The notes beneath the pieces were generated by a model, which had not been told where the DNA came from, searched no databases, and worked only from the letters and a program-made list of their open reading frames with translations. Source: Candidatus Excrementavichristensenella intestinipullorum (GTDB lineage: Bacteria > Bacillota > Clostridia > Christensenellales > Aristaeellaceae). From it: DNA of 41,753 nt. The DNA lies in assembly GCA_018711685.1 (NCBI GenBank), contig DVHZ01000148.1:1-41753 (forward strand). Reading direction: 5' to 3'. Below are positions 27,180 through 38,657 of this stretch, piece by piece. Each line of letters opens with the position of its first letter. The stretch's first letter is position 1. The translations under genes were made by a program, and so were the position numbers.

Positions 27180-27506
27180 ATGGAATATGTAAAGCATCTC
27201 ACCTCTCAGGAGGCAGCCCCTCAGGCCCTTCGGGATAAAGGGGTCGTCCTGGTGGATTTCTGGGCGCCCTGGTGCGGCCCCTGCCGCATGGTGGGGCCGG
27301 TGGTGGAGGCGCTGGCCCAGCAGTATCAGGGCAAAGCCCTGGTGGCCAAGGTCAACGTGGACGAGGAACCCGAGGCGGCAGCGGCCTATCGGGTGGCCAG
27401 TATTCCCACCCTGATTTTGTTCCAGGACGGCCAGGAGCGGGAGCGCCTGGTAGGGGCCCGGGGCAAGGAGACCCTGGAGGCGCTGCTGGACAAGTACCTC
27501 GTGTAA
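27180..27506 (+). CDS. trxA: Thioredoxin
   Basis: 108 residues with the active site [11 protein letters not shown] (about 24-34) and the cis-Pro loop [10 protein letters not shown]. It reduces disulfides in cytosolic proteins. The ATG at 27180 is chosen for GAGGAGG upstream. The 118-base gap from the RseC-like gene holds only GC-rich DNA. Confidence 0.96.
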
Positions 27507-27523
27507 AAAATGCGGTATACCGC

Positions 27524-27552
27524 TTAAAATCCTTACATTGACGTGGTATACT
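27524..27552 (+). promoter_or_regulatory. Promoter candidate of rnj
   Basis: TTAAAA (27524-27529) and TATACT (27547-27552) are 17 bases apart. The 12-bp palindrome at 27512-27523 abuts the -35 and could be an operator. A start near 27559 would give a 260-base leader. Confidence 0.4.
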
Positions 27553-27587
27553 AGGGATTAGTAGATTGCGGTAGACCCGGGGATGTA

Positions 27588-27620
27588 GAGCGCCTGCAAC
27601 TGCGGGCGCTCCTTTCTTTG
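27588..27620 (+). terminator. Terminator-like hairpin after trxA / early in the rnj leader
   Basis: GAGCGCC (27588-27594) pairs with GGCGCTC (27605-27611), followed by CTTTCTTTG. It may end trxA transcripts or act inside the rnj leader. Confidence 0.6.
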
Positions 27621-27673
27621 CGGGCGGGCTTGCGCGCCCGCCTCATCCTGGGGCCTGCGCGTGAAAAACGGCG

Positions 27674-27746
27674 GGATTTCCGGGCCCAAGGCGTCGCACG
27701 TTGCCGGAAAGCAGGGCTTTCCGGGGTCGCCCCACGGCGGAAATCC
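27674..27746 (+). ncRNA. Candidate structured RNA in the rnj leader
   Basis: An outer stem GGATTTCC (27674-27681) / GGAAATCC (27739-27746) encloses a perfect 9-bp hairpin CCGGAAAGC (27704-27712) / GCTTTCCGG (27716-27724) with loop AGG, and a possible small GGC/GCC arm. I do not recognise a known riboswitch class. It is followed 11 bases later by a terminator-like hairpin, a typical riboswitch or attenuator layout. Confidence 0.4.
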
Positions 27747-27757
27747 AGATAGCGAGT

Positions 27758-27784
27758 AAGGGTTTTGAAGAAACCCCTTGTTTT
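27758..27784 (+). terminator. Terminator-like hairpin just upstream of rnj
   Basis: AAGGGTTT (27758-27765) pairs with AAACCCCTT (27771-27779, one bulged C), followed by GTTTTCG. Lying 24 bases before the ribosome site, it could attenuate rnj expression. Confidence 0.5.
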
Positions 27785-27821
27785 CGTGCGTTTTCGTAAG
27801 TCTACAGAAAGGAGGCCGTTT

Positions 27822-29525
27822 ATGGCGGCAAAACGAGGACATCAAGGAAAAGGCCAGCGGCGGGAGGACGAAAAGCGGCTGCGCATCATTCCCCTGGGCG
27901 GCCTGGGGGAAATCGGAAAAAATATGACGGTGCTGGAATACGGCGAGGATATCATGGTGGTGGACATGGGCTCGGTGTTCCCCCGGGAGGACATGCCCGG
28001 CGTGGACCTGGTGATCCCCGACGTGACCTACCTGACCAAAAATGCGTCCAGGGTGCGGGCCTTTGTCATCACCCACGGCCACGAGGACCATATCGGGGCC
28101 TCGCCCTACATCCTGCGCAACCTGCCCTGCCCGGTGTACGGCACCCGGCTCACCCTGGCGCTGATCGAGCACAAGCTAAAGGAGCACCACGTCAACGGCA
28201 TTCCCCTCAACGTGGTCAAGCCGGGGGACAGCATCCGCATCGGGGAGAGCTTTGAGGTGGAATTCCTCAAGGCCAGCCACTCCATCGCGGGGGCGGTGAT
28301 GCTGGCCATTAAAACGCCCGTGGGCACGGTGATTCACACCGGCGACTTCAAGGTGGACTATACCCCCATCGACGGAAAGATCATGGACCTGGGCCGGCTG
28401 GGCGAGCTGGGCCGGGAGGGCGTTCTGCTGCTGCTGGCCGATTCCACCAACGTGGAGCGGCCGGGCTACACCATGAGCGAGCGCACCGTGGGGGAGACCT
28501 TCGTCAACCTGTTCGGCCGGGCGGAGGGCCGGGTCATCGTGGCCATGTTCGCCAGCAACGTGCACCGCATTCAGCAGGTAGTGGACGCGGCGGTGCGGTA
28601 TAACCGCAAGGTGTGCCTGATTGGGCGCAGCATGGTGAACGTGAGCAAAGTAGCCATTCAGCTGGGGGAACTGCGTATTCCCGAAGGCCGGTTGGTGGCG
28701 GTGGACGACCTGGACCGCTACGACGACGACGAGCTGGTGGTGATCACCACCGGCAGCCAGGGCGAACCCATGAGCGGTTTGGCCCGAATGGCCTTCGCCG
28801 AGCACAAAAAATTGGAGATCAAGGGCACCGACATGGTCATCGTGTCGGCCACGCCCATTCCGGGCAACGAAAAATCGGTGTCCCGGGTGATCAACCAGCT
28901 GGTGCGCACCGGGGCCAACGTGATCTACGAGGCCATCGAGGAGGTCCACGTGTCGGGACACGCCTGCCAGGAGGAGCTCAAGCTGATCCACGCCCTGGCC
29001 GATCCCCGCTTCTTCATTCCGGTGCACGGCGAGTACCGCCACCTGCACCACCACGCCAACCTGGCCCTGTCCATGGGTATGGACCAGGACCACGTGCGCA
29101 TCGTGGATACCGGAGACATCGTGGAGGTCAGCCCCAACCGGCTCAGCGTGGTGGGCTCGGTGCCCAGCGGCGAGGTGCTCATCGACGGGCTGGGCGTGGG
29201 CGACGTGGGCGCCGTGGTGCTGCGGGACAGAAAGCATTTAAGCCAGGACGGCCTGCTGGTGGTCATCATGGCGGTGGAACACGACAGCGGCATGGTGGTA
29301 TCCGGTCCGGACATCATCAGCCGGGGCTTCGTGTACATGCGGGAGGCGGACCAGCTGGTGGAGGGCACCCGAGCCGCCGCCCGGTCGGTGCTGCAGTCCT
29401 TCGGCCGCATTGACCCCAGCGACTGGAACCGGGTAAAGAACGACGTGCGGGACACCGTGCAAAAGTATATCTACGACCAGATCAAGCGCTCGCCCATGAT
29501 CCTGCCGGTTATCGTAGAAGTTTGA
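27822..29525 (+). CDS. rnj: Ribonuclease J
   Basis: 567 residues, a metallo-beta-lactamase/beta-CASP RNase with 5'-3' exo- and endonuclease activity that degrades mRNA. The zinc-binding HGHEDHIGA (about 84-92), SHSIAGA, HTGDFK and the later HVSGHA are present; RIIPLGGLGEIGKNM starts the catalytic domain. The basic N-terminus KRGHQGKGQRRE is longer than in B. subtilis RNase J1. The ATG at 27822 has AAAGGAGG 6 bases upstream; the open frame extends further but is the leader. It lies upstream of ylbF. Confidence 0.96.
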   Translation: MAAKRGHQGKGQRREDEKRLRIIPLGGLGEIGKNMTVLEYGEDIMVVDMGSVFPREDMPGVDLVIPDVTYLTKNASRVRAFVITHGHEDHIGASPYILRNLPCPVYGTRLTLALIEHKLKEHHVNGIPLNVVKPGDSIRIGESFEVEFLKASHSIAGAVMLAIKTPVGTVIHTGDFKVDYTPIDGKIMDLGRLGELGREGVLLLLADSTNVERPGYTMSERTVGETFVNLFGRAEGRVIVAMFASNVHRIQQVVDAAVRYNRKVCLIGRSMVNVSKVAIQLGELRIPEGRLVAVDDLDRYDDDELVVITTGSQGEPMSGLARMAFAEHKKLEIKGTDMVIVSATPIPGNEKSVSRVINQLVRTGANVIYEAIEEVHVSGHACQEELKLIHALADPRFFIPVHGEYRHLHHHANLALSMGMDQDHVRIVDTGDIVEVSPNRLSVVGSVPSGEVLIDGLGVGDVGAVVLRDRKHLSQDGLLVVIMAVEHDSGMVVSGPDIISRGFVYMREADQLVEGTRAAARSVLQSFGRIDPSDWNRVKNDVRDTVQKYIYDQIKRSPMILPVIVEV

Positions 29526-29575
29526 ACCGACGGGGGTCCAAGCGCGTCAAAACCCTAAGGGGGGAAAGCATATCC

Positions 29576-29932
29576 ATGAACGTGTACGACCAGGCCCATC
29601 AGCTGGCCCGTTCCCTGCGGGAGTCGGAGGAATATAAGGAGTATACCCGGCTGAAGGAAACCGCCTATCAGGATAGCACCAACAAGGCGCTACTGGACGA
29701 ATACAAGCGCCTGCAATACCGGATGCAGGCCCTGGTGGCTGCTGGGCGGGGCGGAGATGCGGCGGGGGAGGACTTTCAGCGGATGCAGAAGATCGCCCAG
29801 GTGCTGCAGTTCAACCCGGACTGCTCCGCCTACCTGTTGGCGGAATTCCGCTTTCAGAAGATGCTGGCGGACATCTATAAAATTCTGGCCGACGTGGCGG
29901 GCATCGATCTGGACATGCTCGCCCAGAACTGA
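29576..29932 (+). CDS. ylbF: YlbF/YmcA family regulator
   Basis: 118 residues, all-helical. VYDQAHQLARSLRESEEYKEY and the C-terminal FRFQKMLADIYKILADVAGI match the family (Com_YlbF). In B. subtilis YlbF, YmcA and YaaT form an Fe-S complex that directs RNase Y and influences competence, biofilm and sporulation. Here it follows the RNase J gene, again linking it with RNA decay. The ATG at 29576 follows AAGGGGGG. Confidence 0.9.
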   Translation: MNVYDQAHQLARSLRESEEYKEYTRLKETAYQDSTNKALLDEYKRLQYRMQALVAAGRGGDAAGEDFQRMQKIAQVLQFNPDCSAYLLAEFRFQKMLADIYKILADVAGIDLDMLAQN

Positions 29933-29944
29933 CGGGAGGCGGCT

Positions 29945-31243
29945 ATGGCAAGACATCCCATGACCCGGTCCCGGCGGCGTGAAGCGCCGGAGGTGGCGCG
30001 TTATACCCAAAAGACGCTGCACCGGGACCGGGAGTACGGCTTTTTCTGGTACAGCGCCTTGTGGCGGGTGGTTCGCCCCCTGCTGGTGCTGCTGTGCGCC
30101 CTGATCATCGTAGCGGGCCTGGTGTTTACCGGGGTTAACAAGATCAACGAAACCTTCTTCATGGCGGTGGAGCCGGGCAATACCCAGCGGGTGGATTTCG
30201 TCATCGAAAGCGGCAGCAGCATCACCACCATCGGCCGCAACCTGGAGGAAGCGGGGCTCATCCGCAACCAGGCGGTGTTCCGCTACATCATCCAGTTCAA
30301 GGGCCTGACCAGCCAGATCCAGTACGGCAGCTACCCCCTGAGCCGGGATATGGACGTCAATCAGGTCATTGAGGTCCTGTGCCAGGGCAGCGCCACCAAC
30401 GAACGCACCATCACCATCATCCCCGGCTGGACGGTGGAGGATATCGCTGAGTACCTGAAAAACCAGGGCGCCCTGGAGGATACGGAGGAATTCCTCACCC
30501 TGTGCAACGACTTCGACCGGTTTGTGGATTCCTGTTACACCCTGCAAACCGCTCAAGAGCAGGGCCAGCTGGAGGGCCGGCGCTATCAGCTGGAGGGCTA
30601 TCTGGCCCCGGATACCTACCGGGTGTACATGAACGCCAGCGCGGAATCCATCATCCAGACCCTGCTCAAGCAGACCGAAACGGTGATGGACAGCGTGTTC
30701 AACGCCGAGCCCACCCAGCAGGTGGTGCGGGACGAGTTCGGCCAGATCATCACCGACCAGGAAGAGGCGGAGAGCCAGCAGGAAGTGCGCTTCGTCACCA
30801 CCCTGAATCAGGACGAAACGCTGGTATTGGCCTCCATCATCGAGAAGGAAGCGGCCAAGCGGGAGGACTACGCCAAGGTATCCGCGGTGTTCCACAACCG
30901 CCTGGAACGGGGAATGCGCCTGGAATCCGACGCCACCACCGCCTACCCCTTAGGGGTCAAGCGCATGGTGCTCACGGCGGAGGAGCTGTCCACGGTGAAC
31001 GGCTACAACACCTATACCCGGGACGGGTTGCCGGTAGGCCCCATCTGCAATCCCTCCAAGGCGGCCATTCAGGCGGCCCTGTACCCGGATACCGACTACA
31101 TCTACGACGGCTACCTGTACTTCTGCGCGGGCGATCCCTCCACCGGCGAACTGGTCTTTAGCAAGACCCAGGAGGAGCACCAGGCCAACGTGGACAAGTA
31201 CCGGCCCCTGTGGGTCGCCTTTGACCAGCAGAGCGGCCAATAA
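29945..31243 (+). CDS. mltG: Endolytic murein transglycosylase MltG
   Basis: 432 residues. A basic cytoplasmic start (about 1-43), one membrane segment (about 46-68), a LysM-like region and the YceG catalytic domain with LASIIEKEAA, in which Glu300 is the catalytic acid, and VFHNRLERGMRLESD, ATTAYPLG, YNTYTRDGLPVGPICNP. MltG cuts nascent glycan strands and sets their length. It lies 12 bases after ylbF with its own GGGAGG site and ends at a long terminator. Confidence 0.95.
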   Translation: MARHPMTRSRRREAPEVARYTQKTLHRDREYGFFWYSALWRVVRPLLVLLCALIIVAGLVFTGVNKINETFFMAVEPGNTQRVDFVIESGSSITTIGRNLEEAGLIRNQAVFRYIIQFKGLTSQIQYGSYPLSRDMDVNQVIEVLCQGSATNERTITIIPGWTVEDIAEYLKNQGALEDTEEFLTLCNDFDRFVDSCYTLQTAQEQGQLEGRRYQLEGYLAPDTYRVYMNASAESIIQTLLKQTETVMDSVFNAEPTQQVVRDEFGQIITDQEEAESQQEVRFVTTLNQDETLVLASIIEKEAAKREDYAKVSAVFHNRLERGMRLESDATTAYPLGVKRMVLTAEELSTVNGYNTYTRDGLPVGPICNPSKAAIQAALYPDTDYIYDGYLYFCAGDPSTGELVFSKTQEEHQANVDKYRPLWVAFDQQSGQ

Positions 31244-38505: not shown

Positions 38506-38579
38506 TGCCGAATGGTGTAACGGTAGCACCTACGACTCTGACTCGTATTGTCTAGGTTCGAATCCTAGTTCGGCAGCCA
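38506..38579 (+). tRNA. tRNA-Gln (CTG)
   Basis: Acceptor TGCCGAA / TTCGGCA, discriminator G, CCA encoded (38577-38579). The anticodon stem TACGA/TCGTA holds the loop CTCTGAC with anticodon CTG. The T arm is CTAGG-TTCGAAT-CCTAG. Confidence 0.97.
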
Positions 38580-38582
38580 TAA

Positions 38583-38657
38583 GCCTCCATGGTCAAGCGG
38601 TTAAGACGTCGCCCTCTCACGGCGAAAACTGGGGTTCGAGTCCCCATGGAGGTGCCA
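38583..38657 (+). tRNA. tRNA-Glu (CTC)
   Basis: Acceptor GCCTCCA / TGGAGGT with a G-U first pair, discriminator G, CCA encoded (38655-38657). The anticodon stem TCGCC/GGCGA holds the loop CTCTCAC with anticodon CTC. It lies 3 bases after tRNA-Gln and shares its transcript. Confidence 0.97.

Follow-up and report, generated by a model that had tools for sequence, protein, structure and literature searches.

The leader of the rnj-ylbF-mltG array is probably a gene-specific attenuator-like cis-regulatory element, with a predicted termination event and a putative effector, and the best explanation we can offer is that it acts at least partly by transcription attenuation at T1, a promoter-proximal hairpin with a U tract (probability of about 0.55). 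T1 and a second structure further downstream, element II, are almost certainly real and under selection. As a whole, the leader folds at -135.4 kcal/mol, against -118.5 +/- 5.3 kcal/mol for its shuffles (z -3.2, 0/100 as low), and the palindrome, the promoter, the two terminator-like hairpins and the nested structure with a 9-bp hairpin described in the original prediction were all recovered at their positions. Since a terminator scanner finds 2 terminators where shuffles of the 1.2-kb stretch give 1.4 +/- 1.4, their number is meaningless by itself, and it is the comparative evidence that carries weight. The prediction had also recognised no known riboswitch class, which agrees with the Rfam search at the gathering cut-off, where neither the leader nor the loci of 18 relatives were assigned to a family; in a relaxed search of the leader, the best scores were 18.2 bits against a cut-off of 55 and 14.5 against 34. 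Two adjacent tRNA genes (38506-38654) were the sole Rfam hits in the window, i.e., the whole stretch of 41,753 nucleotides analysed here.

The rnj locus and its promoter

The genome (G000) belongs to the Clostridia, comprises 2.68 Mb at 90% completeness and shares its genus with one other genome (congener G001, whose rnj leader is L033). Between the stop of trx at 27506 and the ATG of rnj at 27822 there is a gap of 315 bases, and the genes around it are the following:

27180-27506, + strand: trx, thioredoxin (TIGR01068), upstream neighbour of rnj
27822-29525, + strand: rnj, RNase J, 567 aa (NCBIfam TIGR00649, 606 bits, cut-off 400; Pfam PF22505, PF17770, PF07521)
29522-29932, + strand: ylbF-like gene (Com_YlbF; PF06133, 79.7 bits), whose start overlaps the rnj stop
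29945-31243, + strand: mltG/yceG (TIGR00247, PF02618), third gene of the rnj-ylbF-mltG array

The identity of RNase J is secure by its NCBIfam and Pfam matches, and the spacing of the three genes points to their co-transcription. In 59 of the 66 relatives whose sequence extends 450 nt or more downstream, rnj is directly followed by a ylbF match, so the rnj leader is expected to serve the ylbF-like gene as well. YlbF of B. subtilis belongs to the complex that acts together with RNase Y (PMC10470536), and G000 also encodes an RNase Y gene; taken together with the gene order, this places the leader in front of an RNA-decay operon.

Relatives of RNase J were gathered from 250 and then from all 308 genomes of the family, and 75 named loci and 27 further stretches served as additional sources of leaders. 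Removal of duplicates gave 92 leaders, 81 of them with an RNase J of at least 55% identity (identities are approximate for loci present only in part). Matches to RNase J below 55% identity (kept only in the 92-leader count), same-contig duplicates, loci with less than 150 nt upstream and partial matches beginning after residue 40 were dropped before counting. The first features of the leader are:

27544-27552, + strand: extended -10 promoter TGGTATACT, with the -10 TATACT at 27547-27552 and the extended TG
27564-27569, + strand: GATTGC, at the predicted 5' end of the transcript

The promoter pattern TGnTATA[ACT]T was found, by pattern search and alignment, at most 450 nt upstream of rnj in the leaders of 68 of the 81 relatives. 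From the usual distance to the -10, transcription would start around 27559, which gives a leader of about 260 nt before rnj. The promoter scan detected no + strand promoter-like site downstream of T1 up to rnj, and the only two others in the leader both overlap the place at 27544-27552; because of this conserved upstream promoter and the lack of any later site, a start downstream of 27784, named in the original prediction as an observation that would speak against it, is unlikely. In 8/68 leaders, GATTGC is located 7-11 nt downstream of the -10, where chance alone would yield about 0.35 occurrences. Between trx and the promoter there is also a perfect 12-base palindrome, GCGGTATACCGC (27512-27523), which is absent from the congener leader L033.

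T1 and the sequence in front of it

27588-27619, + strand: T1, intrinsic-terminator hairpin (stem 27588-27611) with U tract CTTTCTTT, from terminator scan, folding and comparison

With its GC-rich hairpin and U tract placed after the promoter and ahead of the gene, T1 has the form of an attenuator, and its fold energy is far below that of its shuffles (z -5.6, 0/200 as low). Its end lies 68 nt from the TG and some 52 nt from the predicted start, in keeping with a GraL-type leader, defined here by a terminator in roughly the first 50 nt of the gene's transcript. A terminator of -12 kcal/mol or lower ending 60-79 nt after the TG was found in 10/68 rnj leaders, where dinucleotide shuffles would give 0.27, and is absent from the other 58 at this setting; with a wider range (+50 to +95), the count is 13/68 against 0.87 expected. 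The ten leaders span six genera of the family (g1, g40, g24, g4, g6 and g47) and are non-independent, with g6 alone contributing four of them. Promoter-like sites nearby that do not belong to rnj, a small and imperfect control, have a terminator at a like distance in 1/24 cases. The position of the predicted early terminator is therefore conserved relative to the promoter. The T1 sequences can be aligned as homologues, with changes on both sides in six of the nine pairs, in an alignment whose ten rows were selected for having a terminator hairpin, which favours pairing (L014 is included and L114 omitted). Model R3, which combines GATTGC with T1, behaves mostly as a general terminator model, matching 200/308 genomes at E <= 1, most of them weakly; all four rnj leaders of g6 are among its matches, L011 at no better than E 0.32 and the other three between 2.6e-4 and 6.6e-3.

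Three other readings of T1 can be considered. It could simply be the terminator of trx, overlapping the rnj promoter region for reasons of space and allowing constant read-through with no regulation; trx ends 17 nt upstream of the -35-like hexamer, the terminator scan reveals no evident terminator for it ahead of the rnj promoter, and some g17 loci that lack T1 (L037, L041 and L055) have terminator-like hairpins upstream of the promoter. We find this quite improbable, considering that the distance of T1 to the rnj promoter is kept, that T1 occurs in L007, L012 and L014, where no upstream trx match was found, and that rnj transcripts must cross a hairpin which lies downstream of their promoter. 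It is also possible, though unlikely, that the hairpins are gates of mRNA stability and not terminators. As a 5'-3' exonuclease, RNase J prefers 5' ends that are free and monophosphorylated; strong hairpins placed behind a brief unpaired 5' stretch might restrict its access to its own mRNA, or cutting by RNase Y, with the level of RNase J setting the life of the messenger. The available text on B. subtilis rny has RNase J1 trimming the rny leader (PMC10303841), and relatives devoid of T1 keep other leader hairpins, which would suit such gates; a mere barrier, however, would not need the U tract that T1 carries at a fixed promoter distance in ten leaders. Finally, promoter and T1 might constitute mainly the gene of a trans-acting small RNA, rnj being reached by read-through, an architecture that resembles GraL of E. 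coli greA as far as the accessible text describes it (PMC6829880). Conservation of the 5' end GATTGC in the eight leaders mentioned is consistent with this idea, but the segment from GATTGC to T1 varies in length and sequence, and we consider a small-RNA gene to be highly doubtful. Attenuation by T1 in the cell, as predicted from its form and position, is in our view fairly likely.

The folding models add a candidate antiterminator. Nascent folds were computed for the window, L033, L007, L008 and L012, and with the last 5-7 nt of T1 missing, GAUUGC pairs with the arm and loop of T1 in 5/5 lineages, in the window only at 7 nt missing. At this last setting, its pairing with T1 exceeds that of random hexamers (combined P 1.7e-4) and of its own permutations (3e-3), in a post hoc comparison of non-independent lineages. 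The total pairing gain was no better than that of shuffled 5' segments (combined P 0.35-0.44, for five lineages of shared ancestry and a test chosen post hoc). Taken as a whole, these models are no more than suggestive of GAUUGC acting as an antiterminator against T1. A leader peptide before T1 was also considered and rejected: by eye, the window has only an AUG immediately followed by UAG (27583-27588, just before T1), L033 differs in having a 15-codon frame that runs through T1, and L007 and L008 have none, so that the arrangement is not conserved.

Element II, T2 and the leaders of related genera

The remainder of the leader, from T1 to rnj, contains the following features:

27620-27641, + strand: GC-rich hairpin between T1 and element II, from folding; not seen in the congener L033
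27674-27746, + strand: element II, from the covariance model and covariation in the congener
27674-27681/27739-27746, + strand: P1, outer helix of element II
27690-27693/27728-27731, + strand: P2 of element II
27704-27724, + strand: P3 of element II, the 9-bp hairpin
27760-27784, + strand: T2, weak terminator-like hairpin (27760-27776) with U tract CTTGTTTT, from the terminator scan
27806-27815, + strand: ribosome site AGAAAGGAGG, from sequence

MAFFT alone gave no alignment of element II, whereas a covariance model built from the window (P1-P2-P3) did, matching the congener leader at E 5.4e-5 in a search of 86 sources (431,541 bases) in which everything else, the element itself aside, scored an E of at least 0.34. 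Within the model alignment of the two species, 97.5% of cells are paired (28-61% after sliding the partner) and five pairs show two-sided changes, three in P1, one in P2 and one in P3, with one P1 pair broken; this alignment was fitted to the model and so leans towards structure, and its covariation comes from one congener only. The structured cis element anticipated by the original prediction is thus real, in that its stems covary in the congener, and the search of related rnj leaders for covarying pairs that had been proposed with it found them, for element II, in L033 only. The joining strands UCGCRCGUUG and GGU are conserved in sequence between the window and the congener, and they resemble a putative binding site. 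Folded alone, element II reaches a z of -1.7, with 11/200 shuffles as low.

As for its distribution, the two-sequence model is convincing only at the rnj leaders of G000 and G001 among the 308 genomes (three others gave E 0.26-0.92), so that by model search element II stands solely before rnj, in a single copy per genome, in 2/308 genomes. Model R2 was expected to match L034 and L035, and no score was obtained for L005/L034 or L035 at E 10. A looser descriptor (P2, GCRCGU, hairpin, GG, P2') is found in 4/92 leaders, which are exactly those of the four closest lineages (the window, L033, L005/L034 and L035), against 5/1840 in shuffles; because it was written after all four had been seen, and the model gives no confirmation of the last two, L005/L034 and L035 are to be taken as a lead only. 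The core string is not enriched in its own genome (35 matches, allowing two mismatches at most, whereas its reversed form, used as a control, gives 49). Complementarity between CGUGCG in the tail of T2 and CGCACG in element II holds in the window; by eye, none was seen in L007 or L036, and this candidate was dropped.

The energy of T2 does not go beyond chance (z -0.97, 34/200 shuffles as low), and a hairpin with a U tract is found at a like place in L033, L007 and L008, as well as in L035, where it is differently built. A string resembling GUUUU-GUGCG follows T2 in 4/81 leaders (shuffle rate of 0.3%), and T2 may be a second terminator or an element of another role. The string UUUUCGUGCG after T2 (27777-27790) is also present in L007 and L036, and L033 and L008 contain similar ones. 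Regarding the order of structured domain, terminator and gene that had been put forward for this leader, the domain and the terminators were found, but the strong T1 precedes the domain and the T2 that follows it is weak.

A metabolite riboswitch, with element II as an aptamer switching T2 or the ribosome site, would fit a covarying structure with conserved joining strands followed by a terminator-like hairpin. We hold it to be very improbable, for element II belongs to a single gene in a single copy, has no Rfam family and is followed by a weak T2, and its covarying structure, observed in two species, does not recur across pathway genes or many species. Furthermore, T1 and element II are tied to rnj and are replaced by other leaders in related genera, which makes a metabolite sensor unlikely and control by a product of the operon or by the decay enzymes the most economical guess.

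Most relatives have neither T1 nor element II, and related genera carry other structured leaders. For the g17 genus, RNAalifold on 16 leaders (three further g17 leaders being outside the alignment) gave a different small hairpin, not element II. The g17 loci (L037, L039, L041, L044, L046, L054 and others) share, downstream of the -10, a highly conserved string resembling TTGGTATGCTGTG; this string in turn looks like another extended -10, and in the same leaders a small hairpin precedes a TATAATATA run. Leaders L065, L066, L075 and L077, and L064 in part, share GGATCGT a short way downstream of the -10, and most of them have CATTCC further on. Nine others (L016, L021, L060, L061, L062, L072, L079, L080 and L093) have a small stem with GG...CC as its closing pairs, a loop that resembles ACGUCGCG or GCGCUGCG and, in many cases, TATA(GA) after it, which is possibly a further shared element. 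Such a rapid turnover of leader types within one family makes it a tractable case for the evolution of autoregulatory leaders.

Proposed mechanism and comparison with known systems

Under attenuation at T1, transcription would start near 27559 from the conserved extended -10 promoter, and RNA polymerase would reach T1 after about 50 nt, where a fraction is predicted to stop and release a leader RNA of about 60 nt. The polymerases that pass T1 would then make the three-helix element II, with binding presumably at its joining strands, followed by the weak T2 and the ribosome site. The signal would most likely be the amount or the load of the RNA-decay machinery, be it RNase J itself or RNase Y together with YlbF, since the elements were found in front of no other operon and change between genera, as leaders that are read by their own product do; feedback by the decay machinery is nevertheless a tentative proposal, which we consider possible rather than probable. 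If T1 attenuates, a single control point at the RNA level would govern both the 5'-3' exonuclease of this Gram-positive-type decay system and a YlbF partner of RNase Y, and one reporter would suffice for a direct test of how RNA decay is balanced. The most complete version, that RNase J and YlbF are under one self-sensing RNA switch, in which GAUUGC antiterminates the nascent T1 and the state of the decay machinery, read through the 5' end or element II, decides passage, is improbable as a whole; if true, it would be a case of RNase feedback through transcription termination rather than mRNA decay.

Attenuators and riboswitch expression platforms combine a terminator hairpin with a U tract in the 5' leader and a structured domain. 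Both features are present in the rnj leader, but here the strong terminator precedes the domain and the antiterminator is only a candidate. The rne 5' UTR has its own Rfam entry, unlike the rnj leader, which has no Rfam match. Our literature search, which covered few subscription papers and did not extend to bioRxiv, found no RNase J attenuator or conserved leader element in titles or abstract openings; the words RNase, ribonuclease, rnj and ykqC are absent from the text of a paper on premature terminators (PMC2965389), and the available text of a paper on Streptomyces RNases mentions no RNase J attenuator or leader element (PMC10126417).

Self-control has precedents among RNases, and rne, pnp and rnc are those given in the accessible portion of PMC3997798. 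The 5' UTR of E. coli rne resembles the rnj leader in being the structured leader of a gene for a decay-initiating RNase, with plausible feedback; it differs in that RNase E binds a leader hairpin and mRNA decay follows, not termination (PMC3997798, in the part available). The rny gene of B. subtilis, which encodes a decay enzyme of Gram-positive type, also controls itself, with involvement of its own leader, on which RNase J1 acts; that system is cleavage-based, and the available text describes no attenuator and does not contain the string 'attenuat' (PMC10303841). The nearest architecture that we found is that of GraL before greA in E. coli, where 19 nt precede the terminator and roughly two thirds of the greA transcripts are stopped (PMC6829880). 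As in the rnj leader, a terminator stands a few tens of nucleotides after the start and before a gene of the RNA machinery; GraL yields a terminated leader RNA and a read-through messenger, and the sequence before its hairpin matters, as the partly conserved one may do here. The two differ in that the effect of GraL on its own gene needs GreA (PMC6829880) and in that the rnj leader has a further conserved domain, element II, after T1; no sequence relation between them is expected. On these likenesses, the rnj leader would belong with the structured attenuator-like leaders of RNA-machinery genes.
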